Notes under the pieces: generated by a model
Databases searched by the model: none
Told to the model about the DNA's origin: nothing
The model's input: the letters and a program-made list of their open reading frames with translations, nothing else
Shown: one piece after another, positions 11,805-59,668 of the stretch
How the letters are laid out: every line of letters starts with the position of its first letter
Position numbering within the stretch: position 1 is the stretch's first letter
NCBI RefSeq assembly: GCF_000236685.1
Contig: NC_016633.1
Span: forward strand, 2,790,001 to 2,854,000
Direction: 5' to 3'
DNA: 64,000 nucleotides
From: Sphaerochaeta pleomorpha str. Grapes
Lineage (GTDB): Bacteria; Spirochaetota; Spirochaetia; Sphaerochaetales; Sphaerochaetaceae
Program-made: the position numbers and the translations under genes

Positions 11805-12275
11805 ATGAATGTTTCAATGATTATGTCAATTGTCGTAACGATGATTGGCTTTGTGTATACCCTATCTACCTTTTTGCTACCGAATGCAAAGATAGGCCTC
11901 AAATATGAACCGAAGATATTCCCCGCAATACTGGGAATCAGCCTGCTCGTCATGGGGACCTTGCTGATCATCCAGGAAATTAGGGAGAATGCGAAAACCA
12001 CAGAAAAGAAACCAACTGTTACCTTTCTTGGACAAGAGCAGAAAAACATCCTGTTGACCGTGGCAAACGGTTTTCTCTATGCGTTGCTCTTCGAGCGGAT
12101 TGGCTATGTATTTTCCACCATCCTTTTTTTGAACATCCAGTTGTATGTATTTAGGGGGAGAAAACCTTGGAAGAGTTCCCTGGTTATCTCTGTAATTTTC
12201 TCTGTTGTGGCTTTCGTCCTCTTTTTTGTATTGATGGGCGTATATCTGCCAAAGTCTCCCTTAGGGTTTGTATAA
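11805..12275 (+). CDS. tctB: Tripartite tricarboxylate transporter, small membrane subunit
   Basis: A 156-residue membrane protein with about four hydrophobic segments (roughly residues 3-24, 40-57, 82-110 and 126-147), the usual size and topology of TctB. The sequence is poorly conserved in this family, so the call leans on position between tctC and tctA and on topology. CGGAGGA lies a few bases upstream of the ATG. It forms the small integral-membrane partner of TctA in a secondary, ion-driven, binding-protein-dependent carrier. Confidence 0.85.
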   Translation: MNVSMIMSIVVTMIGFVYTLSTFLLPNAKIGLKYEPKIFPAILGISLLVMGTLLIIQEIRENAKTTEKKPTVTFLGQEQKNILLTVANGFLYALLFERIGYVFSTILFLNIQLYVFRGRKPWKSSLVISVIFSVVAFVLFFVLMGVYLPKSPLGFV

Positions 12276-12286
12276 GGAAATAGAAT

Positions 12287-13789
12287 ATGAATAGTTTTCA
12301 ATTATTACTACAAGGCTTTGGCGTAGCCTCTCAACCGTTCTACATCCTTTGCGTAACCATAGGGGGTGTCCTTGGTACCATTGTTGGGATGCTTCCAGGC
12401 CTTGGACCTGCGACTGGGGTAGCCATACTTTTACCCCTGACTTTCTCCATGGGACCCGTGGCAGCGTTGATCATGATGTGCGGGGTCTATTACGGTGCGA
12501 TGTATGGAGGGTCTAGGGCCTCTATCCTCATCAACACCCCTGGAGACGGGGCCGCCATTGCGGCAACCTTTGATGGCTATCCTATGAGTCTGCAGGGAAG
12601 AGCGGAAGCTGCTTTGGCAATCTCCGCAATTGCATCCTTCATCGGTGGTACGATTTCGACTATCCTTATAGCTTTCATGGCTCTCCCTGTCTCCCGGTTT
12701 GCCTTGCAGTTCGGGTCAGCTGAATATTTTCTTCTCTATGTATTTGCCTTGAGTGCAACTGCATCGATGTCAGACGGTAAAAAACTCAAAGGGTTTATAT
12801 CCATGGTAATCGGACTGATGGTTTCAACTGTTGGGATCGACCCTCAGTCGGGAGTCAACCGATTCAGTTTTGGGCTTCTTGAGTTGCAGGGTGGTATCGA
12901 TTTCCTCATTGTCATTATTGCAGTCTTTGCCTTCGGGGAGGTGCTCAAGAGTTTCAAGAATATCTCCGACGGAAAGAAAAAAATGCAGACGAAATTCGGA
13001 AAAATCTGGATTACGAAAGACGACTGGAAACGTTCCGTCTGGCCTATTCTCCGTAGTTCCCCCTTGGGATTCTTCGTCGGTGTTCTCCCTGGTGCGGGTG
13101 CTACCATCGCTTCTTTGATGGCCTATAGCAATGAAAAACGCTTTTCAAAACACCCGGAAGAATTTGGACATGGAGCTATCGAAGGGGTAGCTGCCCCTGA
13201 GTCGGCAAATAACTCGGCTTCCGTCGGCGCCTTGATCCCCATGCTTGCCCTTGGTGTACCAGGTTCTGGGACTACCGCTGTTATGATGGGTGCCATGCTT
13301 ATGTTAGGGCTTCAGCCCGGCCCAGCCCTGTTCCAGCAGCAGAGCCATATCGTCTGGGCGATTATCGCCAGCATGTTCATTGGAAACATCATTCTGGCTG
13401 TAATAAACATACCCTTGGCTGGTTTGCTGGTCCGTGTCCTTGCCGTTCCCCCACGGGTTCTGTATCCGATTGTTCTTGGTTTGACCTTTGTAGGTACCTA
13501 TGCGATTGCCTCGTCCACAGCAAGTTTTTATATGTTGCTTGTGTTCGGAATCTTTGGCTACTTGATGGCGAAAGCAGATTTCCCTACCAGCCCCTTTGTC
13601 CTGGCAGTAATTGTAGGGACAAATATGGAGCAGTACTTCAGACGTGCTTACAAAATTGCAGATGGAAGTTTTAAGATTTTTGTCAGCACACCTATTTGTA
13701 TCATTCTTCTTGTTCTCATAGTAGGTTCCTTCCTTCTGCCTCTTTTCCAATCGTATAGGAAGGCGAGGAAGTTGAAATCCCAACACTAG
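12287..13789 (+). CDS. tctA: Tripartite tricarboxylate transporter, large membrane subunit
   Basis: A 500-residue polytopic membrane protein with the TctA hallmarks: [17 protein letters not shown] (about 35-51) and, in the second half, [16 protein letters not shown] (about 264-279), an internal repeat typical of the family. [15 protein letters not shown] and [17 protein letters not shown] also match. About ten to twelve hydrophobic segments are visible. It starts 11 bases after tctB with AAGGAA upstream. It is the transport channel of the TctABC carrier, and with the downstream cit genes it supports citrate uptake for fermentation. Confidence 0.95.
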
Positions 13790-13800
13790 ACATTGTGGGA

Positions 13801-13818
13801 GCCTGCAGATTTGCAGGC
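13801..13818 (+). terminator. Hairpin between tctA and citD
   Basis: A perfect 7-base-pair stem (GCCTGCA 13801-13807, TGCAGGC 13812-13818) with a GATT loop, followed by AATCTTT. It lies 11 bases after the tctA stop. The weak T tract suggests partial read-through into citDEFXG. Confidence 0.5.
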
Positions 13819-13857
13819 AATCTTTACGCATAGTATTTGTTTTGAGGAGTTGTTGTA

Positions 13858-14148
13858 ATGAAAGTAGTTAGCACTGGCTTAGCCGGAACTATGGAATCGA
13901 GCGATATCATGGTTACCGTGTGCAAGGGGTCGAATGAGGGGATTACCATTCATTTGACGAGCTCGGTTTCTAAACAGTTTGGCAAGCAGATAAAAAATGT
14001 GATTCGTGAATGTGTTATGAAACTCGGAGTCACTGATGCCGATATAACAGCCGTTGACCAAGGGGCCCTTGACTGCGTCATCAAAGCCAGGGTCGAAACA
14101 GCTCTGTATCGTTCCTGTGAAAGTACTGATTACCGGTGGGAGGTCTGA
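13858..14148 (+). CDS. citD: Citrate lyase acyl-carrier protein (gamma subunit)
   Basis: A 96-residue CitD. It carries the phosphoribosyl-dephospho-CoA prosthetic group on a serine; the site is S14 in AGTMESSDIMV, matching GTLES-D in enterobacterial CitD. SSVSKQFGKQIKNVI and DQGALDCVIKARVETAL are also conserved. GAGGAGTTGTTGTA lies before the ATG. It is the first gene of citD-citE-citF-citX-citG, whose products split citrate to acetate and oxaloacetate in the cytoplasm. Confidence 0.95.
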   Translation: MKVVSTGLAGTMESSDIMVTVCKGSNEGITIHLTSSVSKQFGKQIKNVIRECVMKLGVTDADITAVDQGALDCVIKARVETALYRSCESTDYRWEV

Positions 14149-14150
14149 CT

Positions 14151-15032
14151 ATGGAAGACAAGCTCAGACGTACGATGATGTTTGTTCCCGGGAACAATCC
14201 CGGAATGATAAAAGATGCCTACATATATAACTGTGACAGTATTATGTTCGACCTTGAAGACAGTGTTTCCTATGCAGAGAAAGATGCAGCCCGGAGCCTG
14301 GTATTCCATGCGTTGACTACTATCGATTACGGGGACAAAGAACTTGTGGTAAGAGTCAACGCACTCAATACTTTCATCGGTATCGCGGACCTGGAAGCAA
14401 TGGTCAGGGCAAAAGTCGATGTAATCAGGCTGCCAAAGACAGAAACCGCCGAGGATATCGTGTTCTGCGAGCAACAAGTCGAACGAATCGAGAAAAGCAT
14501 TGGGATGCAAATCGGTACGACAAAGTTAATGGCAGCGATCGAGAGTGCAGAAGGAGTGTTGAACGCTCCTCTTATCGCCAAGGCAAGCAAGCGCCTTATT
14601 GGAATTGCCTTAGGTGCTGAAGACTATGTTACGGATTTGAAGACAAACCGTTCTCCCGAAGGAACCGAATTGCTGTTTGCCCGGTGCATGATATTGCAGG
14701 CTGCAAGGGCAGCGGGCATCTGTGCCCTCGATACCGTTTATTCGGATGTAAATAACGAAGAAGGCTTGATTGCAGAGGTGAAGCATATCAAGCAACTCGG
14801 TTTCGATGGTAAATCGGTAATCAATCCACGGCAGATTCAACCGGTTATCGATGTGTTCACTCCTACCGAGAAGGAAATTCAGAAAGCCTTGGCTGTAATG
14901 GAAGCCATTGAGGAAGCGAATAGGCGTGGTTCAGGGGTAATTGCACTCAACGGCAAGATGATCGACCGACCTATCGTACTGCGGGCAGAACGGGTGATCA
15001 ACCTGGCAAAAGCTGCAAAGATTCTTAAATAG
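14151..15032 (+). CDS. citE: Citrate lyase beta subunit (citryl-ACP lyase)
   Basis: A 293-residue CitE, the HpcH/HpaI-type TIM barrel that cleaves citryl-ACP to acetyl-ACP and oxaloacetate. It has the N-terminal RRTMMFVPGNNPGM, the metal-site strand IMFDLEDSVSY (about 30-40), RVNALNT, a Glu metal ligand in AAIESAEGVLNA and LGAEDYVTDLKTNRS. The ATG at 14151 is chosen over an in-frame start at 14136 because it gives the family N-terminus and GGGAGG lies about 9 bases upstream. It begins two bases after the citD stop. Confidence 0.95.
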   Translation: MEDKLRRTMMFVPGNNPGMIKDAYIYNCDSIMFDLEDSVSYAEKDAARSLVFHALTTIDYGDKELVVRVNALNTFIGIADLEAMVRAKVDVIRLPKTETAEDIVFCEQQVERIEKSIGMQIGTTKLMAAIESAEGVLNAPLIAKASKRLIGIALGAEDYVTDLKTNRSPEGTELLFARCMILQAARAAGICALDTVYSDVNNEEGLIAEVKHIKQLGFDGKSVINPRQIQPVIDVFTPTEKEIQKALAVMEAIEEANRRGSGVIALNGKMIDRPIVLRAERVINLAKAAKILK

Positions 15033-15042
15033 GAGAGAGCAG

Positions 15043-16593
15043 ATGCAGAAAATCGACATGACTGCAATACAACATATCAAAGATCTGAAAGACGTGCAGG
15101 TACCGTTTACCCTTGACCATGCACACAAGGAACTCAAGACCTGCCATGAGAGGGAGCTGAGTGAAAACAAGATTGTCCCTTCGCTTGAGGAAGCGATAAG
15201 GCAAGCAGGTTTGCAAGACGGGATGACCATCTCATTCCACCACCATTTTCGTAATGGCGACTATGTGGTCAACATGGTGATGGATACTATTGCAAAGATG
15301 GGCTTCAAGGATTTGGTCCTGGCTCCTAGTTCGTTGATCGATATCCATAAGCCATTGATTGAACATATCAGAAATGGGGTCATCCGTAGAATTGAAACAA
15401 GTGGTATCCGAGGTGATCTTGCTGAGGCGATTTCCCGGGGTCTGATGGATATCCCTGTTGTCTTCCGTTCCCACGGAGGACGGGCTGCAGTTATAGAGTC
15501 AGGGCAACTTCCCATCGACATAGCTTTCCTCGGGGCGCCCTCCTGTGACCCGTTTGGAAATGCAAATGGTTATTCCAGGGATAATGACAAAGGTGTTATC
15601 TGTGGGTCGATGGGGTATGCGAAACTTGACGCCCAGTATGCTAAAAAGGTTATCATCCTAACCGACAATATTGTTCCCTTTCCCAATGTTCCCTTTGGAA
15701 TACCGGAATCAGATGTCGATTTTGTCGTAGAGGTCGATGCCATCGGGGATCCGAATGGAATAATGGGGGGCTCAACTCGTTTTACCACAAACCCGAAGGA
15801 GCTGATGATAGCCCAGAAAGTTTCGGAGGTTATCGAGGCCACTGACTTCTTCCGCAATGGGTTTTCAATTCAGATGGGATCCGGTGGAGCAAGCCTGGCT
15901 ACAGTTCGCTTCTTGAAAGACAAAATGATCCAGCACAACATTAAAGCCAGCTTTGCCCTTGGTGGTATAACCGGCCAGATTGTCCAACTTCATGAAGAAG
16001 GGTTGATCAAGAAAATTCTGGACGTACAGTCTTTTGACCTCGTTGCGGCCAGATCCCTGAAAGATAACCGGTTTCACCAGCAGATTTCTGCTTCCTATTA
16101 TGCAAGCCCCCACAATACGGGCTCTGCAGTGAACCAGCTGGATTTCGTTATTCTCTCTGCACTTGAGGTCGATACTAAATTCAACATCAATGTACTTACC
16201 GGTAGTGATGGGGTTATCCGTGGAGCAATCGGCGGACATTGTGATACGGCCGCAGGAGCGTCTGTTTCCATCATCACCTGTCCTCTGACCCGAGGAAGGA
16301 TTGCCACCATCGTAGACAAGGTCAATACCGTAGTCACGCCAGGGAAGACAATCGATATTGTCGTCACTGACCAAGGCGTGGCGGTCAATCCCCTCCGTAA
16401 TGACTTGATTACGATGCTCACGAATGCTGGTATTGACCTGTGCACTATCGAACAGCTCCGGGAAAAGGCCGCTAGGATTGTCGGGGATTCGACTCCCATT
16501 ACCTATACAGACAAGGTTGTCGGGGTGGTTACCTACCGCGATGGTTCGGTTATCGACTTGATTTATCAAGTGAAGGACGAGGAAGAGGTATAA
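15043..16593 (+). CDS. citF: Citrate lyase alpha subunit (citrate:acetyl-ACP transferase)
   Basis: A 516-residue CitF, normal length. This subunit exchanges acetyl for citryl on the CitD prosthetic group. Recognisable family stretches are ISFHHHFRNGDYVVNMVMD (about 65-83), FRSHGGRAAVIESG, APSCDPFGNANGYS, the glycine-rich QMGSGGASLATVRFL (about 277-291) and GGHCDTAAGASVSI. AGGAGAGAGCAG stands directly before the ATG. It follows citE by ten bases in the same operon. Confidence 0.96.
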   Translation: MQKIDMTAIQHIKDLKDVQVPFTLDHAHKELKTCHERELSENKIVPSLEEAIRQAGLQDGMTISFHHHFRNGDYVVNMVMDTIAKMGFKDLVLAPSSLIDIHKPLIEHIRNGVIRRIETSGIRGDLAEAISRGLMDIPVVFRSHGGRAAVIESGQLPIDIAFLGAPSCDPFGNANGYSRDNDKGVICGSMGYAKLDAQYAKKVIILTDNIVPFPNVPFGIPESDVDFVVEVDAIGDPNGIMGGSTRFTTNPKELMIAQKVSEVIEATDFFRNGFSIQMGSGGASLATVRFLKDKMIQHNIKASFALGGITGQIVQLHEEGLIKKILDVQSFDLVAARSLKDNRFHQQISASYYASPHNTGSAVNQLDFVILSALEVDTKFNINVLTGSDGVIRGAIGGHCDTAAGASVSIITCPLTRGRIATIVDKVNTVVTPGKTIDIVVTDQGVAVNPLRNDLITMLTNAGIDLCTIEQLREKAARIVGDSTPITYTDKVVGVVTYRDGSVIDLIYQVKDEEEV

Positions 16594-16597
16594 TTCT

Positions 16598-17119
16598 ATG
16601 GCTACGCTTGAGGAAATTCTCAAAGAAAGGGATTGCCGCTCAGCTTTGCAGGCATCCCTTATCGAAAAATACGGATACCCTCTGGTTGTCTGTACTATGA
16701 ATATCCCAGGACCGGATAAAAACAACGCCAGGATTCAAGCTGGTTTCGACAAGAGTATGGAAGCTTTTTCAATAAAGAATGAAGCGAACCTGGAAAAAGT
16801 GCTTGAACGTCGTTTAGAAACTGGTCCTGAGGCTTATTTCATCGTAACGGGAGGGACGAACCTGCTTTCCCTCAAGCGTAGACTTGCTTTTTTCGAACAA
16901 ACCTATCCGATAGGTCGTTTGCTAGACCTGGATGTAAAGAGACTCGACGGTTCCCCGGTTTCCCGCAAGGATATCAACCTGGGGAGTAGAAAATGCCTTT
17001 TATGCCACAGGCCGGCCAAAGAATGTGCAAGGAGCCAACGACATAGCATCGAGGAACTCTCAGCTTATATGAATGAGGTCTTGGATAGGTTCTTGTGTAA
17101 AAACCACCCATGGAAGTAG
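16598..17119 (+). CDS. citX: Apo-citrate lyase phosphoribosyl-dephospho-CoA transferase
   Basis: A 173-residue CitX, which attaches the prosthetic-group precursor to Ser14 of CitD. Typical features are the N-terminal EEILKERDCRSALQ, the glycine pair in FIVTGGTNLLSLKRR, PIGRLLDLDVKRLDG and the cysteine-containing KCLLCHRPAKECARSQRHS near the end. It starts four bases after citF and its last 10 bases overlap citG. CitX and CitG are separate here, not fused as in some bacteria. Confidence 0.92.
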   Translation: MATLEEILKERDCRSALQASLIEKYGYPLVVCTMNIPGPDKNNARIQAGFDKSMEAFSIKNEANLEKVLERRLETGPEAYFIVTGGTNLLSLKRRLAFFEQTYPIGRLLDLDVKRLDGSPVSRKDINLGSRKCLLCHRPAKECARSQRHSIEELSAYMNEVLDRFLCKNHPWK

Positions 17120-18051
17120 AAGAATTTCTCTGCGCGAAAGCCTTACTTGAAGAAGTCGGAACCACTAGGAAACCTGGACTGGTTGACCGGATTCATAGTG
17201 GTGGGCATACGGATATGGACTACCAGACTTTTGTTGCAAGTACCAGAGCCCTGAAACCCTTCTTTGGGGAAATGGCAGAAACAGGTAAAAACTGGGAAGG
17301 CTCGCTTCCAGCTCTGTTCAAGAAGATCAGATTGATCGGGCAGGTAGCTGAATTGGCGATGTTTCAAGCTACCGGTGGGGTGAATACCCATAAAGGGCTT
17401 CTTTTTTCTGCTGGCATCCTTTGCAGTATTTCCGGCTATTCCAGAATGAAGTATGGTAGCACTAATACAGACTTACTGTGTTCCCTGGTACAAGAAATGA
17501 CGTTTGAAGTGCTGGAGGAGGAATTTTTTCAGATACTGGAAAAGCCCCAGAAAACCCATGGTGAGCAGTTGTTTACAACCAAGGGCATCCGCGGTATACG
17601 CGGAGAGGTGCAGCAAGGATTTCCTTCTGTCCTCACCGTTTCACTTCCCGTCTATACTCGCTTGCTCAAGGAGGGAAGGGATTCCAACCTTGCCAGAATC
17701 CAGACATTGTTGCATCTGATGGCCAACGTATGTGACACCAATATCTTATATCGACATAGCCAGGAAACTTTGGATTATGTACAGCAAACTGCCCATTACA
17801 TCCTGCAAAGGGGAGGGGCGTTTAGTGAAGAAGGTCTATCTCTCATTGTTGATTTTGACCGGATATGTACGGAAAAGAAAATCAGTGCAGGGGGATGTGC
17901 CGACTTGCTCGGTGTCACCATCCTTTTACATGATCTCAATCTCCTCGATGCCTATGGCTCTACCCCCTCTGCGCTTCTGCAGTTCTTCAGGATTTTAACC
18001 AGTACCAGTAATAAAGAATGTTCCTTACATGAGTCTCCGGTATTTTTTTGA
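17110..18051 (+). CDS. citG: Triphosphoribosyl-dephospho-CoA synthase
   Basis: A 313-residue CitG, which makes the citrate lyase prosthetic-group precursor from ATP and dephospho-CoA. The signature TTRKPGLVDRIHSGGHTDMDY (about 18-38) and ATGGVNTHKGLLFSAG (about 90-105), with its conserved nucleotide-binding residues, are clear. The ATG lies inside the citX 3' end, a translational-coupling arrangement. It is the last gene of the cit operon. I see no strong terminator in the 62 bases before the next gene, so read-through is possible. Confidence 0.93.
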   Translation: MEVEEFLCAKALLEEVGTTRKPGLVDRIHSGGHTDMDYQTFVASTRALKPFFGEMAETGKNWEGSLPALFKKIRLIGQVAELAMFQATGGVNTHKGLLFSAGILCSISGYSRMKYGSTNTDLLCSLVQEMTFEVLEEEFFQILEKPQKTHGEQLFTTKGIRGIRGEVQQGFPSVLTVSLPVYTRLLKEGRDSNLARIQTLLHLMANVCDTNILYRHSQETLDYVQQTAHYILQRGGAFSEEGLSLIVDFDRICTEKKISAGGCADLLGVTILLHDLNLLDAYGSTPSALLQFFRILTSTSNKECSLHESPVFF

Positions 18052-19156: not shown

Positions 19157-20890
19157 CTAGAGTTCAGCCCATACCAAAGTCCATACAGGAAGGGCATCGA
19201 TGGTTATCTCCCATGCCATGCCCCTCAGCCCCTCTGCTTGCCTGCCTAAAAGTTTGTGTGCTCTTCCGTTATCAATTTGCGGGGAGGCCATGAAGAAGTG
19301 CATAGATGGTGAATAGGGGGGAATCTGGATAGTAATACCCGCTTCTTTATCCAAAGGTTCTTTTTCCAAGTTCCAAAGCGAATCTTTTTGGCCGATCAGA
19401 TTTATCAAATTGATGACAATCAACTTCTTGTCCATATGGACGATTGGCCAGAGAGTATCCGGTAACCCCTCAAAGGAAATTCCAATCTCCGATAGGTCAG
19501 TATTTTCTTGGGGAGGGATTGAGAATTCAAATTCCCTGTTCTCTCCGAATGCGAAGCTCTCGGTTACATCAACAAGGTCATTGCCAAAGAGCAATTGGCA
19601 ATATTGGATGGAAAAATCCGTATAGGAGGTAAGCAGGTTTCTTTCTTCTTGTCTGAGAGGAGTATAGTCAACGTAATAGGGTTGGGTAAGGATCCCCCCA
19701 TTTTCCCCGAAGAGCAACGGGGTTGCGCCCTGTGCATAGGTGCTTGCCATAAGCAGACAGGTGGAAGCAAGGGCCTTTTTCCGGTCCAAGGTCCCGCTTT
19801 CTTTAAAGGAACGGGAATAGGCTGCAAGTACTACCGGTTTGCCGAACCCGCGATGATTCTGTATTAGCTGGCGAAGATGCCTGTACTGGGTATGGGGATC
19901 CCATACCTCTATATACACGGCTTTTTGGTTTGCCTTTGCCGTCAGGTCTGCTGGCCAGCCCCCTACGTTATTGAATATATTTTCGTTGCCGTGCTTTGCC
20001 CATGCATTTATGAGGGAAACGAATTCCCTGTCAAGGTAGACAGGCTTCTGTTCATTGTCAAAGGCAATCTTGGGATATCCGTAGGTATCCATGTGGATTC
20101 CGTCAAACCCAAGGGTATCGGTGGCATAGCAGTATTGGTCTAGGATTCTCTTTCTCCACTGATTCCCCTCTGCAATATTCATGATGAAAAACTTGTCGAT
20201 CAAATCTATTGGTTTTCCCCCGAACGCATACAAACCTTGCTCTGGATGGTCCTGAAGATATTCCTTTGATGCGGCATATACTGCACCATAGGCAAGTGCT
20301 TTCATACCATGGTGTTGTAATCCTTCCACTGATTGTTTGACAACAGATAGATCAACACTTTTCCCCATCAAGTCCCGGTATTTTTTCCCTTGGTCAAACT
20401 GGATAGGTTCGATTTCATACTGATGGGGTCTGTAGGACCAGTCATAGAACTGAACATGGGTGCAATGTTGTTGCAAGAGAAAGTCGAGAGCAGAATTCCT
20501 GGAAACCGAATCCTCGGTCTTGAATCCGGTGAGAAAACCATAGCGTACCTGGTTCGGTTCCACGTCTATTGCGCTCTTTGCCTCTGTGTTGCTGCCATCA
20601 GGGAACGTTATTGTGAGATATAGGCCATAGCCAGAACCGGTTTTCAACGGTTTTGTCAGGGTGATTTCCTGTTCAAAGCGTAGGAACCCTGTGGTTTGGG
20701 AAAGGGAACGTATAGGTTCCCCCTCCAGGCAATCTATGACCCGACCCAGATTTTCGATTTGCAGCGTGAAGGAAAAAGCTGAAAATGAATCTTCCCCAAC
20801 CGGCATTTCAATGGCAAGGGGAATCCTGTCAGCCCCTTCTTGTAGGCAAGGAACCAAGGGCCAGAAACGAATCTCAAGAGAATTGTCCAT
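19157..20890 (-). CDS. Glycoside hydrolase family 66 (dextranase / cycloisomaltooligosaccharide-active type), apparently cytoplasmic
   Basis: A 577-residue GH66-like enzyme. The catalytic barrel holds YDWSYRPH (about 149-156), the nucleophile region FDGIHMDTYG (D268) and YIEVWDPH (E328 as likely acid/base); C-terminal residues form a beta-sandwich. GH66 enzymes hydrolyse or transglycosylate alpha-1,6-glucan and are usually secreted with long accessory regions; this one has no signal peptide and is short. I chose the ATG at 20890, four bases after the permease stop, with AAAGGATA upstream. It is the last gene of a sugar-import operon, so it likely acts on imported linear or cyclic isomalto-oligosaccharides. 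The catalytic residue assignments are by motif, not alignment. Confidence 0.82.
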   Translation of the reverse strand: MDNSLEIRFWPLVPCLQEGADRIPLAIEMPVGEDSFSAFSFTLQIENLGRVIDCLEGEPIRSLSQTTGFLRFEQEITLTKPLKTGSGYGLYLTITFPDGSNTEAKSAIDVEPNQVRYGFLTGFKTEDSVSRNSALDFLLQQHCTHVQFYDWSYRPHQYEIEPIQFDQGKKYRDLMGKSVDLSVVKQSVEGLQHHGMKALAYGAVYAASKEYLQDHPEQGLYAFGGKPIDLIDKFFIMNIAEGNQWRKRILDQYCYATDTLGFDGIHMDTYGYPKIAFDNEQKPVYLDREFVSLINAWAKHGNENIFNNVGGWPADLTAKANQKAVYIEVWDPHTQYRHLRQLIQNHRGFGKPVVLAAYSRSFKESGTLDRKKALASTCLLMASTYAQGATPLLFGENGGILTQPYYVDYTPLRQEERNLLTSYTDFSIQYCQLLFGNDLVDVTESFAFGENREFEFSIPPQENTDLSEIGISFEGLPDTLWPIVHMDKKLIVINLINLIGQKDSLWNLEKEPLDKEAGITIQIPPYSPSMHFFMASPQIDNGRAHKLLGRQAEGLRGMAWEITIDALPVWTLVWAEL

Positions 20891-20894
20891 AACG

Positions 20895-21734
20895 CTATCC
20901 TTTGATGGCACCGGTAGTGATGCCTGAGATGAAGTATTTTTGGAAAACCAGGAACATGAGAACGGCAGGAAGCAGGCCCAAAAAAGCTGCTGCAGCCATC
21001 AAGGGCCAGTTTGCCCCGTATTGCTGGAAAAAAAGTGAAATCGCAAGGGGAATGTTGCGGTGTGCCTGGTCCTGCAGGAAAAAGACTGCCTGTGCATAGT
21101 TATTCCACATGCCTACCCCCTGTAGGATTACAACAGAGGACGTTACCGGTCCGAGCAGGGGCATGGTAATTTTCCAGAAGGCATCGAACCAGGAACATCC
21201 GTCGATGATGGCTGATTCTTCAAGTGAAATGGGGATTGACCGAATGAAAGAGGCATAGAGAAAGACAGAGAAGGGGAGTGAATTCGTGGCCATTACGCAT
21301 ATCATTGCCCAATACGTGTTGATTCCTTTCATACGAATCAAAAGGGTATAGAGCGGCACTGTATTGATGATTCCTGGAATCATCATGCAACCTAAGAGAA
21401 TTGCAAATATCACCTTGTTCAGCAAAGAGGGGAAACGGGCTATGGTATAACCAGCCATTGAAGAAAGAACTATCAGAAGGATTACCCCACCACTGGTCAT
21501 GATGAAACTGTTAGCCATGGCTTTTCCCATTTTGCCGGCCTTCCAGGCATTTGGGAAATTACCCCAATTGAAATCAGGGATCAACCGGATTGAGGAAAGC
21601 CCTCCTTCCGGGCTTTTCAGTGATAGAAGAATAAGCAAGAGGAAAGGAACCAAAGCGACGAGGGCGATTAGGAAGACGACCGGGTATAAAGGGTGCTCTA
21701 GGGTGTCTCTGTTTTTTCTTTGTGTATGATTCAT
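20895..21734 (-). CDS. Carbohydrate ABC transporter permease, MalG type
   Basis: A 279-residue permease with six hydrophobic segments and the EAA loop of MalG-type proteins (SLEESAIIDGCSWFDAFWKITMP, about 183-205). It begins MNHTQRKNRD; its ATG overlaps the upstream permease stop in a TAATG arrangement, with GGGAGG before it. A longer frame runs back into the previous gene but is not needed. It should pair with the MalF-type permease to move a gluco-oligosaccharide. No ATPase gene is in the cluster, so a shared MsmX/UgpC-like ATPase is presumably encoded elsewhere. Confidence 0.93.
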   Translation of the reverse strand: MNHTQRKNRDTLEHPLYPVVFLIALVALVPFLLLILLSLKSPEGGLSSIRLIPDFNWGNFPNAWKAGKMGKAMANSFIMTSGGVILLIVLSSMAGYTIARFPSLLNKVIFAILLGCMMIPGIINTVPLYTLLIRMKGINTYWAMICVMATNSLPFSVFLYASFIRSIPISLEESAIIDGCSWFDAFWKITMPLLGPVTSSVVILQGVGMWNNYAQAVFFLQDQAHRNIPLAISLFFQQYGANWPLMAAAAFLGLLPAVLMFLVFQKYFISGITTGAIKG

Positions 21735-22630
21735 TACCTGTCCTCCCTCGCATTGAAAAACCGAAGGGAAAGAAGGACTGGGATGAGTATGATGACAAAG
21801 AGAATCAAGGCAACTGCCGTAGAGTATCCTGTCTTGTTTCCATAACACATGCGCATGATATAGATGCTTAACGATTCTGTGTCATAGCCAGGTCCCCCGT
21901 CGGTCAAAGATAGTATTGCATCGAAAACGGAAAGTGATCCGATGATATTGGTTATTACATTGATTTTCAGTGCAGGAATGAGCTGAGGCAAGACAATATA
22001 TCTGAATATATGCTGTCTAGAGGCTCCTTCGAGTTCAGCAGCCTCATAGTGCTCGACAGGGATGGCCTGCAAACCTGCAAGGTAGATGATCATGGTCATG
22101 CCTGCGTATTGCCAGACATTGACCAATACGATAACAAGCATTGCGCTTCCGCCTGAAAGCATCCAGTTGGTGTTGGATATATAGCCAACCCGTTGTAGTA
22201 GAATTGCCAGAAGACCCCGTTTGGGTTGTAGCAAAAGGTACCAGATTGAACCCATGATCATGGGGCTTATGACTGCCGGAAGGTAGAGCAGGGAACGTAC
22301 GGCGGCTCTAGCCTTGAATGTCCTATTCATCAGAAGGGCAAGAAGCAGGCCCAAAATGTTGAGCAACGGGGCGCTTCCCAAGGCAAAGAGCACCGTGTTT
22401 TGGATGTCTCTCAAGGCCCGGTCATCATGGAAAAAATCCCGGTAATTCTTTACACCGATGAAGGTCGGGGTGGAAAAACCATCCCAAGCGGTAAAACTGG
22501 TCCATACCCCCCTGCAAAGGGGGTACAGAAAGAAAACGGAAAAGAGCAGGAGGGCGGGCACCGCCATAAAGCGGTGCCAGGAAGCTGAATTCAAATGCAA
22601 GGTTCTCTTTTCTCTAGTGACTGGCAGCAT
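21734..22630 (-). CDS. Carbohydrate ABC transporter permease, MalF type
   Basis: About 298 residues with six hydrophobic segments and the EAA-loop motif (HYEAAELEGASRQHIFRYIVLPQL). The start is uncertain: ATG 22630 overlaps the binding-protein 3' end by 17 bases, a TTG at 22600 would avoid the overlap, and further Met codons lie at 22636 and 22639. None has a strong ribosome site. It follows the binding protein and precedes the MalG-type permease in the same operon. Confidence 0.92.
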   Translation of the reverse strand: MLPVTREKRTLHLNSASWHRFMAVPALLLFSVFFLYPLCRGVWTSFTAWDGFSTPTFIGVKNYRDFFHDDRALRDIQNTVLFALGSAPLLNILGLLLALLMNRTFKARAAVRSLLYLPAVISPMIMGSIWYLLLQPKRGLLAILLQRVGYISNTNWMLSGGSAMLVIVLVNVWQYAGMTMIIYLAGLQAIPVEHYEAAELEGASRQHIFRYIVLPQLIPALKINVITNIIGSLSVFDAILSLTDGGPGYDTESLSIYIMRMCYGNKTGYSTAVALILFVIILIPVLLSLRFFNAREDR

Positions 22631-23894
22631 ATGCATCATTCCATAGGTTTTGGTATTCCTTTGCGAACTGCACAGGTGAGGCAAAGTCGCCGTGGAGCAA
22701 TTTCTGTATGAGCCTACCGGTATCGTCTACAGAGAGACCGGAAGGGGCTTCTGTTGAGAAGTTGATATTCACGTAGGTTTTTACCAGCCTGCTTGCATCG
22801 TCTTTTATCGGGCTCCAGTTGGCATCGACATCGACAAATGCAGAGGGAATGCCACGGGTTTCACTGAATGATTTCTGGGTTGCAGGGTCAAACAGATAGT
22901 TTAGGAAAGCAAATACAGCCTCGGGTGATTTTGTAGTTGCCGATACGGCGTACACGGAATCCTCAGCGCAGAGAACCATCGGTTGCAAACCTTTTACAAC
23001 AGAGGGGAAGGGACCGAAACCAATATTGCTTTTCATTTCGGGATTCAGTTTGACAATATCCCCAACGACCCACATGCCTTGATTGATGATGACAGCTTCT
23101 CCGCTTGCAAAAGCCTCTTTCTGGTTATCATAGGTTGCAGTAATGGCATCATCGTTGATAAGATGTTTATCCTTCAACTCAAGCAGGGCTTTTGCAAAGT
23201 TTTCCATGATTCCGTTCGGTGCATCCCATTGCACGGAATTATCCAGGAATGCTTTGCGTGAACCAGGAATCCCGAGCTGTTGTTTCACAACCCCATGGGC
23301 CCAGAATTCAATCAGATGCCCTAGTGTCCAGGAATCCTTTCCTCCAAGAAACAAAGGGGTCTTGTCAGGGTAGGCTTTCTTGATGGTCTCCAGGTTTTGT
23401 ACGAACTCTTCCCAGCTCTGGGCGTCCTTGAGCCCAAGTTCAGCAAAAATATGCTTGTTGTAAAAAAGACCTCCCATGGTGATGTTCGTGGCAACCTTGT
23501 ACTGCTTGCCTGTTTTGAGGTCAGTGCACAAATCCTTTACGGAAGGAAGTATTCTGTCCCAGAATCTTTGGTCGGAAAGATCCATATACAGACCTTTGTC
23601 GATGTAATCCTGGGTAACTACCGTAGAAAGGTCTGGCATCTGGTTCGAGGCAATCTTGACCTTGATGACATTTGAAGCATCCTTTTGGAATTCATATTCC
23701 ACATTGACCATCGGATTCAATTTCTCAAACTGGGCAACCTGTTGGGTATCCCAGTCGACGGTTTCAACCCTACCTGAGAAATAGCTGATGCTTTTCTTTG
23801 TTTCCTTGGTTCCCTGGGCTCCCAAGGGAAGCAAGCAAAGGGCCAATAACGCAACGGTGAGCGACAACCTACTTACATACGATTTCCTTCTCAT
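22614..23894 (-). CDS. Sugar ABC transporter solute-binding protein (family 1, MalE-like)
   Basis: A 426-residue extracytoplasmic binding protein with a signal peptide (RRKSYVSRLSLTVALLALCLLPLGAQG, likely cut after LGAQ or LGA). The mature part has family-1 features such as WDTQQVAQFEKLNPMVNVEYEF, SNQMPDLSTVV and the C-terminal FAFLNYLFDPATQKSF. The ATG at 23894 is preferred over one at 23903 because GGAG then lies at a normal distance; it begins two bases after the GH15 stop. Placement between GH15 and GH66 genes suggests an isomalto-oligosaccharide ligand. Confidence 0.92.
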   Translation of the reverse strand: MRRKSYVSRLSLTVALLALCLLPLGAQGTKETKKSISYFSGRVETVDWDTQQVAQFEKLNPMVNVEYEFQKDASNVIKVKIASNQMPDLSTVVTQDYIDKGLYMDLSDQRFWDRILPSVKDLCTDLKTGKQYKVATNITMGGLFYNKHIFAELGLKDAQSWEEFVQNLETIKKAYPDKTPLFLGGKDSWTLGHLIEFWAHGVVKQQLGIPGSRKAFLDNSVQWDAPNGIMENFAKALLELKDKHLINDDAITATYDNQKEAFASGEAVIINQGMWVVGDIVKLNPEMKSNIGFGPFPSVVKGLQPMVLCAEDSVYAVSATTKSPEAVFAFLNYLFDPATQKSFSETRGIPSAFVDVDANWSPIKDDASRLVKTYVNINFSTEAPSGLSVDDTGRLIQKLLHGDFASPVQFAKEYQNLWNDAYAASH

Positions 23895-23896
23895 AA

Positions 23897-25018
23897 CTAC
23901 CATTCTCCTTTTTCATTGTATTGCATAATCTCGAAATCGAGGATCAAAAACATAGCATGTGACCATAAAAGAGGGCTTGCAATGGTTCCCCATCGCCTTT
24001 CCCATACATCAATCATCGAGGGGTCATTGGTAAATGCAGTGACTTGTTCCGGAAATGAACCTTGCTCCGTTCGTTGGGCAACCATCCAGGCAAGCAATTT
24101 CCTTGCCTCCCCAACCCGGCCTGATCTGAGGTAATGCCACCCGAGGAATCCTGAGAGGGGAATCCAAAGGCCTCCCCCATAATAGGTGTCTTCTGCATAC
24201 CGCTGCGTTCCCCCCTGGTGCAGCAACTGCTCTTCGATGAGTCGAATTGTTTTTTTCATCGAAGGGTCGTCCTGATTGAAAACTCCATAGGGGGTAGAAA
24301 GCCAGATGAGGCTGGCATCGACTAACGACGTACCAATGAATTTGGGGAAGAATCCCAATGGATTTTTTTGTTCCTCGATAAACAACCGGATTGCTTGAGC
24401 CAATATAATGGCGCGTTGCTTGTCTGAAGGTTTGAGATACAAAAAGATGCTTTGCAATCCCCCCGCAAGACAGGCAAGGGTTGAAAGATGCTGTTTGTCG
24501 TGAAATTCTTCCCAGCAGTCACTTGATGGCAGTTTCCAGACAGTTTCGATATACTTGATTGCCAAAGAAACTGGCTTTTCCCATGCTTGGGGAAGTTTTG
24601 TTTCCTGTTTCTGTTCCAGATATTTGGCGGCAAGCCAAAGTAACGTCCCGTATCCATCCGGCTGAAAGTTTGGCCAGTCGCTCGTATCCTCTTCTCCTGC
24701 AAGGGTAAACCGAGCCCCGAGAAACCGATGGTTGTCCAATTTTGGGTTCTGTTCCAGCAATTCGGGGAGGGCAAGGATTTTTTCTTCGTTACGGAGCAGT
24801 ACTGCCATTGCCCAATTGATGAATCGGTGCGTCGCCTCTTGTTGTCCGTACAGCAAAAGGCTATAGGCAATATAACTACTGTCACGCATCCAGCAATAAT
24901 TATATTGGCTGAATTGGGGACCCGCTACGAAGGCACCGCTCGGACTCTGGTATGTGAGTAAAAGATCTAGGCTTTCTTGTTGCAACAGACTAAGGTTAGT
25001 AGAGACGAGTGTTTTCAT
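23897..25018 (-). CDS. Glycoside hydrolase family 15-like glucohydrolase, cytoplasmic
   Basis: A 373-residue alpha/alpha-barrel hydrolase of GH15 type. Visible motifs are SPSGAFVAGPQFSQYNYCWMRD (about 25-46), WPNFQPDGYGTLLW, the acid site CWEE (E170-E171), TYYGGGLWIPLSGFLGW and the base site FPEQV (E324). It has no signal peptide and no extra domain, so it resembles isomaltose glucohydrolases and glucodextranase catalytic cores more than fungal glucoamylase. It is the first gene of the operon GH15-SBP-permease-permease-GH66, directly behind a LacI operator pair. It likely releases glucose from imported alpha-1,6-glucosides; linkage is inferred from the GH66 partner. Confidence 0.85.
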   Translation of the reverse strand: MKTLVSTNLSLLQQESLDLLLTYQSPSGAFVAGPQFSQYNYCWMRDSSYIAYSLLLYGQQEATHRFINWAMAVLLRNEEKILALPELLEQNPKLDNHRFLGARFTLAGEEDTSDWPNFQPDGYGTLLWLAAKYLEQKQETKLPQAWEKPVSLAIKYIETVWKLPSSDCWEEFHDKQHLSTLACLAGGLQSIFLYLKPSDKQRAIILAQAIRLFIEEQKNPLGFFPKFIGTSLVDASLIWLSTPYGVFNQDDPSMKKTIRLIEEQLLHQGGTQRYAEDTYYGGGLWIPLSGFLGWHYLRSGRVGEARKLLAWMVAQRTEQGSFPEQVTAFTNDPSMIDVWERRWGTIASPLLWSHAMFLILDFEIMQYNEKGEW

Positions 25019-25040: not shown

Positions 25041-25065
25041 GTAAGCGTTTACGGTAAACGTTTAC
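25041..25065. promoter_or_regulatory. Tandem LacI-type operators before the isomalto-oligosaccharide operon
   Basis: Two sites 13 bases apart centre to centre: GTAAGCGTTTAC (25041-25052, one mismatch from symmetry) and GTAAACGTTTAC (25054-25065, perfect palindrome). They lie 23-47 bases from the GH15 ATG, directly behind the LacI gene. A TATATT on the minus strand nearby may be the -10 box. Confidence 0.75.
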
Positions 25066-25084: not shown

Positions 25085-26080
25085 TCACTCTCGTATATCC
25101 TGCACGGAATCACGTTCCTTCACGAAATGGGGCAATATAATTTGCTGGATGCTTTGTTCCTCGGTCAGCAGTCTCATGGCTGTCTCACCCAGTTCTTCGA
25201 TTCCCTGGTGGATGGTTGTCAACGAAGGGAAGGCAATCTGGGCATCGAGCGTGTCGTCGTACCCGATGACAGAAACCTGCTGGGGAATTCTGATGTTGTT
25301 TTTATGTAGCCAGGCAATTGCCCCGAGGGCCATCTCGTCGCTGGTAGCAAAGACTGCTGTCAATTCGGGATGGGTATCGTACAGCTTTTCCATGGCAGTG
25401 ATTCCGCTGAAGAAATGAAAGTCTCCATAGGCAATGAGACTGTCGTCGATCTCGATCGATGCTTCCTTGAGGGCCTTGAGATATCCGTCAATCCTCGGTT
25501 TTCCTGCAATACGGTCAGAAGCGGAACCGGTAATCAGCCCAATATGCGCGTGTCCTTTTGCAATGAGATATCGGGTAGCGCTTTCCGCTGCTGCTGCATC
25601 ATCAATCTTGACCGAGGAAAATGGAAAGGAATTCCTATGGGTAGCTACCAAGACAACGGGGATTCCCAAGTCCTTGAGGTAGGATCCATACTCATCGGTA
25701 AGCCATTCACTGATATAGAGGATTCCGTCAACCCGTTTTTCACTGAGTGTTTTCAGGTAAGCCATGGTCCGTTCCCCGTTATGGTCTGTATTGCAGACAA
25801 TGACGCTTTTCCCCTGGCTATGGGCGATTCGCTCGATGCCCCGAAGAAGTTCATTGGAGAATCTTCCGGTAACACAGGGTAGCAGAACTCCTATGACATT
25901 GGTTTTTTTGTTTACGAGACCCCGTGCTATTGCATTGGGGGTATAGCCCAGTTCTGCGATGGTCTTTTCGACCTTCAGCCGGGTTTTTTCGGAATACCCA
26001 GGAAGATTGTTGAGTATCCTAGATACCGTGGCAATCGAGACTCCTGCTTGCTTTGCCACTTCCTGGATATTTACAGACAT
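25085..26080 (-). CDS. LacI-family repressor of the isomalto-oligosaccharide operon
   Basis: A 331-residue LacI-type regulator: helix-turn-helix at the N-terminus (NIQEVAKQAGVSIATVSRILNN, about 4-25), hinge helix GYTPNAIARGLVN, then a periplasmic-binding-protein-like sugar domain (GVLLPCVTGRFSNELLRGIE to the end). AAGGAG precedes the ATG. It is transcribed in the same direction as the GH15 operon and ends 66 bases before it. Perfect palindromes of the LacI type occur both before its own gene (26104-26121) and before GH15, so it probably represses both until its sugar effector is present. Confidence 0.93.
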   Translation of the reverse strand: MSVNIQEVAKQAGVSIATVSRILNNLPGYSEKTRLKVEKTIAELGYTPNAIARGLVNKKTNVIGVLLPCVTGRFSNELLRGIERIAHSQGKSVIVCNTDHNGERTMAYLKTLSEKRVDGILYISEWLTDEYGSYLKDLGIPVVLVATHRNSFPFSSVKIDDAAAAESATRYLIAKGHAHIGLITGSASDRIAGKPRIDGYLKALKEASIEIDDSLIAYGDFHFFSGITAMEKLYDTHPELTAVFATSDEMALGAIAWLHKNNIRIPQQVSVIGYDDTLDAQIAFPSLTTIHQGIEELGETAMRLLTEEQSIQQIILPHFVKERDSVQDIRE

Positions 26081-26103: not shown

Positions 26104-26121
26104 TACGTAAACGTTTACGTA
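26104..26121. promoter_or_regulatory. LacI-type operator before the regulator's own gene
   Basis: A perfect 18-base palindrome, TACGTAAACGTTTACGTA, 23 bases upstream of the LacI start codon. It shares the core GTAAACGTTTAC with the operator before GH15, which points to autoregulation. Confidence 0.75.
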
Positions 26122-26276
26122 TATTGTAGCGAAGTTTGGTTGGTTGTCAAGGAAAAGTTTTCGAATAATAAAAATCCTGCCCTGCACGGGAGGCCTAAAT
26201 ACAAATGCTTCCGATTCATGCCGCTGGGGAATTGTTTTGGGCAATCGTGGGGTTGCCTAGATGCAATGTCCCTTGG

Positions 26277-39190: not shown

Positions 39191-39242
39191 ATGTAATCGT
39201 TTACATCATTGCCAGTATTACATGTTATCTGTTGATTTGCAA
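39191..39242. promoter_or_regulatory. fucI/fucU divergent promoter region with LacI-type operator
   Basis: The palindrome-like ATGTAATCGTTTACAT (39191-39206; on the minus strand TGTAAACGATTACA) differs by one base from the operator TGTAAACGTTTACA at 59655-59668. On the plus strand TTTACA (39200-39205), 17 bases, TGTTAT (39223-39228) could drive fucU. On the minus strand TTGCAA (39242-39237), 16 bases, TAATAC (39220-39215) could drive fucI. The operator would overlap the first promoter and lie just downstream of the second. Confidence 0.5.
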
Positions 39243-59654: not shown

Positions 59655-59668
59655 TGTAAACGTTTACA
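59655..59668. promoter_or_regulatory. LacI-type operator before the second sugar ABC operon
   Basis: A perfect 14-base palindrome, TGTAAACGTTTACA, nine bases upstream of a TTGACA box. It shares the core GTAAACGTTTAC with the isomalto-oligosaccharide operators and is one base away from the fucI/fucU site. The LacI gene at the end of this operon (63596) is the likely partner. Confidence 0.7.

Follow-up and report, generated by a model that had tools for sequence, protein, structure and literature searches.

A spirochaete with non-spiral cells, Sphaerochaeta, appears to carry in one LacI-controlled operon what is needed to import alpha-1,6-linked gluco-oligosaccharides and digest them inside the cell, a reading to which we assign a probability of roughly 0.8. 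The operon lies in a window of 64,000 nucleotides, the whole stretch of DNA analyzed here (bases 2790001-2854000 of one 3,590,853-base contig). It occupies the minus strand from window position 26080 to 19157 and, by open reading frames (ORFs) and profile matches, contains the following genes in order:

25085-26080, minus strand: lacI-family regulator, the first gene of the operon (PF00356 and Peripla_BP; an orthologue heads all nine related Spirochaetota operons)
23897-25018, minus strand: GH15, isomaltose-glucohydrolase-like, 373 aa, without signal peptide (PF00723, E 1e-26)
22614-23894, minus strand: sugar-binding protein of the MsmE/RafE clade with a signal peptide, 426 aa from the ATG at 23894 (PF01547, SBP_bac_1)
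21734-22639, minus strand: permease 1, UgpA/GlcT/MalF type, precise start uncertain (PF00528; partial NCBIfam UgpA/GlcT matches)
20895-21734, minus strand: permease 2, GlcU/MalG type, from the ATG at 21734 (PF00528, BPD_transp_1)
19157-20890, minus strand: GH66, compact and probably dextranase-type, 577 aa, without signal peptide or CBM35 insertion (PF13199, E 3e-76)

A sequence-only reading of positions 19157-25018 had named five of these genes; all are present on the minus strand, and the profile matches agree with the families given. Its gene set was right, but its span leaves out the first gene, lacI (25085-26080), and three putative operators. The GH66 ATG at 20890, preceded by AAAGGA and located 4 bases past the permease 2 stop, yields the 577 residues claimed earlier. 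Signal-peptide calls were made from hydrophobicity and inspection, without a trained predictor: the highest 12-residue Kyte-Doolittle mean at the N-terminus is 2.6 for the binding protein, 1.1 for GH66 and 0.9 for GH15. Neither hydrolase has a hydrophobic N-terminus, in agreement with the claim that both are signal-less, and GH66 is predicted to be cytoplasmic.

In the proposed pathway, a periplasmic MsmE-like protein would capture isomalto-oligosaccharides made by other organisms, and two permeases would import them unhydrolysed, powered by an MsmX-type ATPase that is shared and encoded outside the operon. Cytoplasmic GH66 would then cut internal alpha-1,6 bonds, releasing isomaltotriose or isomaltose; any cyclic substrates taken up would have their rings opened by the same enzyme. 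The predicted flux would end with cytoplasmic GH15, hydrolysing the GH66 products to glucose. Until an inducer appears, LacI would keep both the lacI promoter and the start of GH15 repressed.

The PF13199 match covers residues 29-581 of the 584-aa GH66 ORF, a whole-length family match, and identity to characterised enzymes is low. The catalytic residues of PsCITase, Asp309 and Glu381 (PMC5408701), align with D268 and E328 of the window GH66, and both positions are invariant in 91 compact sequences. The alignment shows no counterpart in the window GH66 to the CBM35 insertion in the seventh barrel loop, about 127 residues long in PsCITase; ORF residues 380 and 387 flank the insert, and all compact GH66 members have 26-44 residues at this site. 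Because the CBM35 insertion of cyclising enzymes is missing, we classify the enzyme, by its sequence, as dextranase-type. A whole-genome profile search found no second GH66; the window enzyme is the sole member, and the cell therefore has no cycloisomaltooligosaccharide-forming enzyme (CITase) of the GH66 family.

For the window GH15, the closest relative of known structure is the isomaltose glucohydrolase KfIG of Kribbella flavida (PDB 5z3d, E 1.3e-61). All ten KfIG residues compared are identical in the window enzyme: Glu178, which we take to be the general acid, and Glu179, together with Tyr48, Asp56, Tyr291, Pro334, Glu335, Gln336, Trp350 and Ala358. The catalytic Glu pair and Trp350 are present as E170, E324 and W339. 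Roles of the last eight residues are taken from PMC12446779, where Trp350 is linked to alpha-1,6 specificity in isomaltose glucohydrolase. The window GH15 is most likely isomaltose-glucohydrolase-like, with predicted activity on isomaltose. The two enzymes share the GH15 family and the catalytic and alpha-1,6-specificity residues (KfIG structures, PDB 5Z3A-F). KfIG, to go by the title of Tagami 2016 as cited in PMC12446779, is tied to catabolism of cyclobis-(1-6)-alpha-nigerosyl, a cyclic tetrasaccharide, whereas the partner of the Sphaerochaeta GH15 is a GH66.

The best sequence matches of the binding protein are RafE/MsmE. Its AlphaFold2 model (mean pLDDT 90) has as nearest folds MsmE (Z 40.9, rmsd 2.7, 383 aligned), a stachyose-bound homologue, RafE and the panose/raffinose protein BlG16BP, and the raffinose, stachyose and panose binders of this clade recognise alpha-1,6-linked sugars (PMC8106489). 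The family resemblance does not fix the ligand, because chitin-oligosaccharide and xylo-oligosaccharide binders are also close to the model in fold. Membership in one clade with BlG16BP, whose preferred ligand is panose (PMC8106489), would suit an operon serving branched alpha-glucan fragments (panose, limit dextrins), with alpha-1,6 cleavage as just one step. We consider this improbable: GH66 endodextranases attack stretches of consecutive alpha-1,6 links, and the operon contains no alpha-1,4-acting enzyme, though GH13 genes occur elsewhere in the genome.

A profile search of the operon ORFs found no ATPase gene, which bears out the earlier statement that the operon lacks one. ATPase sharing is to be expected, since the genome has 58 SBP_bac_1 matches. 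Two OB_MalK-type ATPases were found in the genome by profile search, one of which, having a linked permease and binding protein of its own, was set aside as a partner. An orphan MsmX-like ATPase (G000:C1:1273861-1274979, equivalent to L026:9262-10380) has no permease beside it, matches MsmX with E 6e-125, and contains all four residues, D77, R104, E110 and K154, that are common to exchangeable multitask ATPases (PMC7658222). The search for an MsmX-type gene elsewhere in the genome, which the sequence-only reading had proposed as a check, thus returned an unlinked candidate with the full signature, and by elimination we infer that it powers the window importer. An encapsulin (Linocin_M18) gene directly precedes the orphan ATPase gene (L026:8190-10380).

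Upstream of lacI and GH15 we identified four candidate regulatory elements:

26123-26150, minus strand: candidate sigma-70-like promoter TTGACA-16-TACAAT, upstream of lacI (by consensus match, 11/12)
26104-26121, no strand assigned: putative operator 1, TACGTAAACGTTTACGTA, immediately after the -10 hexamer (motif enrichment, conservation in relatives)
25054-25065, no strand assigned: putative operator 2, GTAAACGTTTAC, upstream of GH15 (motif enrichment)
25041-25052, no strand assigned: putative operator 3, GTAAACGCTTAC, forming a tandem with operator 2 at a spacing of 13 bp (motif enrichment)

The palindrome GTAAACGNTTAC has 10 strand-wise matches in the window versus 0.43 expected; within the operon, one site lies at the lacI promoter and two lie in tandem before GH15. 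In its 18-bp form, operator 1 has one exact match in the 3.59 Mb genome, at the lacI promoter. The tandem pair also precedes GH15 in two related operons (L030 and L033), and similar palindromes occur at equivalent places in related operons; the most diverged of these, L058, has an ACCGGT-centred palindrome at both places instead. Operator placement and conservation in relatives support, but do not prove, that the LacI encoded in the operon controls the lacI promoter and the start of GH15. Two further GTAAACGNTTAC palindromes, at 39193-39204 and 59656-59667, have as neighbours a fucose-isomerase-like gene and a gene for a ribose-type ABC binding protein. They were set aside as regulon members, being near unrelated sugar genes, and are perhaps sites of related LacI regulators.

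The same gene set is carried by nine other Spirochaetota loci, and the arrangement is therefore not due to chance. In the GH66 tree, the window enzyme and those of eight of these nine loci form one clade, and the closest operons among named records belong to Sphaerochaeta MAGs. Scanning genomes with the GH66 alignment gave 153 confirmed relatives, and we retained the best 80. Weak GH66 matches to 530-aa proteins of G031 (E about 4e-4) and G032 (E about 6e-4), which the window GH66 does not match, were dropped. A related permease gene is located immediately upstream of the compact GH66 in 69 of these best 80 of 153 loci, and a MalK-like ATPase scoring above 250 bits is nearby in one, proportions that are not those of the whole GH66 family since the loci were picked by similarity to the compact query. 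The view of GH66 enzymes as normally secreted multidomain proteins was overstated: a signal-less compact form stands directly downstream of a binding protein and two permeases in most of the best 80 of 153 loci, and this form, predicted to be cytoplasmic, is common.

Among the same best 80 of 153, the binding protein is of the window's type in 61 loci, of the type of the proven binder of cyclic isomalto-oligosaccharides (CIs), TdCIBP, in nine, and of neither type in ten, several of which sit on truncated contigs; no locus has both types. GH66s linked to a TdCIBP-type protein form one supported clade. As exo-enzyme partner, nine of these best 80 of 153 loci, all of them Spirochaetota, have GH15, 24 have GH13 and five have a GH125-like protein. 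A second, large GH66 occurs nearby in 15 of the 80, mostly with a signal-peptide-like N-terminus and nearly always with a CITase-size insertion.

These neighbours bear on the idea that the importer is specialised for CIs of other bacteria and that ring opening is the main task of GH66, the situation in Paenibacillus sp. 598K. In eight Firmicutes loci with the window's type of binding protein (L049, L051, L052, L059, L064, L069, L071 and L087), the compact GH66 adjoins a large GH66 that has an N-terminus resembling a signal peptide and an insertion of the size seen in CITases, and a CI-degrading intracellular dextranase is known (Mizushima 2019, as cited in PMC13084667). We nevertheless regard a CI-specialised importer as unlikely. 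The window binding protein is not an orthologue of TdCIBP: its score against 9XF5 is 28 bits, whereas the L096 protein reaches 309. The sequence relationship to TdCIBP is remote, the clade is a different one, and TdCIBP has its own group of GH66-linked orthologues. CITase is missing from the Sphaerochaeta genome, and TdCIBP itself also binds linear chains. Cyclic import is possible, with linear substrates at least as likely for this operon. Of the alpha-1,6-glucan route put forward in the sequence-only reading, the cytoplasmic GH66 and GH15, the dedicated importer and the shared ATPase stand; import of rings is not established, the binding protein not being of the TdCIBP type and no second GH66, hence no CITase, being present. 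It is a speculative extension, unlikely in our view, that the MsmE-like importer beside compact GH66 (61 of the best 80 of 153 loci) represents a second widespread, uncharacterised transporter type for both cyclic and linear isomalto-oligosaccharides, with a binding-protein clade differing from that of TdCIBP, by which spirochaetes unable to make CIs scavenge their neighbours' rings. Export of GH66 by a non-classical route, to act in the periplasm, is highly improbable, as we found nothing in its support and a hydrophobic N-terminus is missing in the window enzyme and generally in its compact relatives, whereas the neighbouring large GH66s have one.

Precedents exist in Gram-positive bacteria for taking up alpha-1,6 oligosaccharides whole and digesting them in the cytoplasm. 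Tepidibacillus has a CI-binding protein together with genes for an intracellular dextranase and an isomaltose glucohydrolase (PMC13084667), and the same paper cites work in which Paenibacillus sp. 598K takes up CIs and degrades them inside the cell; the central inference of the earlier reading is therefore known biology. With the Tepidibacillus decaturensis system Sphaerochaeta shares oligosaccharide import, cytoplasmic dextranase and isomaltose glucohydrolase, on the Sphaerochaeta side predicted from genes; it differs in having another binding-protein clade, no CITase, and a single LacI-controlled operon that unites importer and hydrolases. Paenibacillus sp. 598K likewise has an intracellular dextranase for imported oligosaccharides (Mizushima 2019 via PMC13084667), as predicted for Sphaerochaeta; that strain makes CIs by its own secreted CITase, whereas the Sphaerochaeta genome has a single GH66. 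The spirochaete operon is thus a variant of a known pathway, with another binding-protein clade, a dedicated LacI with putative operators, and no CITase.

The window binding protein falls in the same clade as those of the streptococcal and Bacillus Msm and Raf importers and Bifidobacterium BlG16BP, and the Sphaerochaeta orphan ATPase can be likened to the MsmX/MsmK-type shared ATPase of the Msm/Raf cases. Intracellular enzymes of the Msm/Raf systems are alpha-galactosidase and GH13 glucosidases. Those in the Bifidobacterium setting of BlG16BP are also alpha-galactosidase and GH13 glucosidases (PMC8106489), unlike the Sphaerochaeta GH66 and GH15. A literature search, with subscription journals mostly outside its scope, found no publication on Sphaerochaeta and isomaltose. 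Our preferred reading, in which alpha-1,6-linked gluco-oligosaccharides are imported and then digested inside the cell, would extend cytoplasmic alpha-1,6-glucan digestion to spirochaetes, would have the same kind of intracellular GH66 served by two separate binding-protein clades, and corrects the view of GH66 as an essentially secreted family. A single compact operon also makes it feasible to test importer, endo-enzyme, exo-enzyme and regulator jointly.

Several further gene arrangements were observed. In other Spirochaetales and in some Clostridia/Christensenellaceae loci, compact GH66 comes with a protein of 573-637 aa that matches GH125 only in part (PF06824, C-terminal half; L016:11160-12908, L019:11024-12793, L025:10834-12555); its location hints at a possible intracellular alpha-glucosidase of an undescribed kind. 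One spirochaete genome, G078, has two arrangements: a TdCIBP-type importer, GH66, an AraC-like regulator and GH13 in one set, and a window-type importer, GH66 and the GH125-like protein in the other (L015 and L025). Adjoining the window operon at 11805-18051 is a citrate-lyase-like cluster, assigned by reading the sequence, with a TctA/TctB-like transporter and citE-, citF-, citX- and citG-like genes, and this neighbourhood is kept in L021 and L022.
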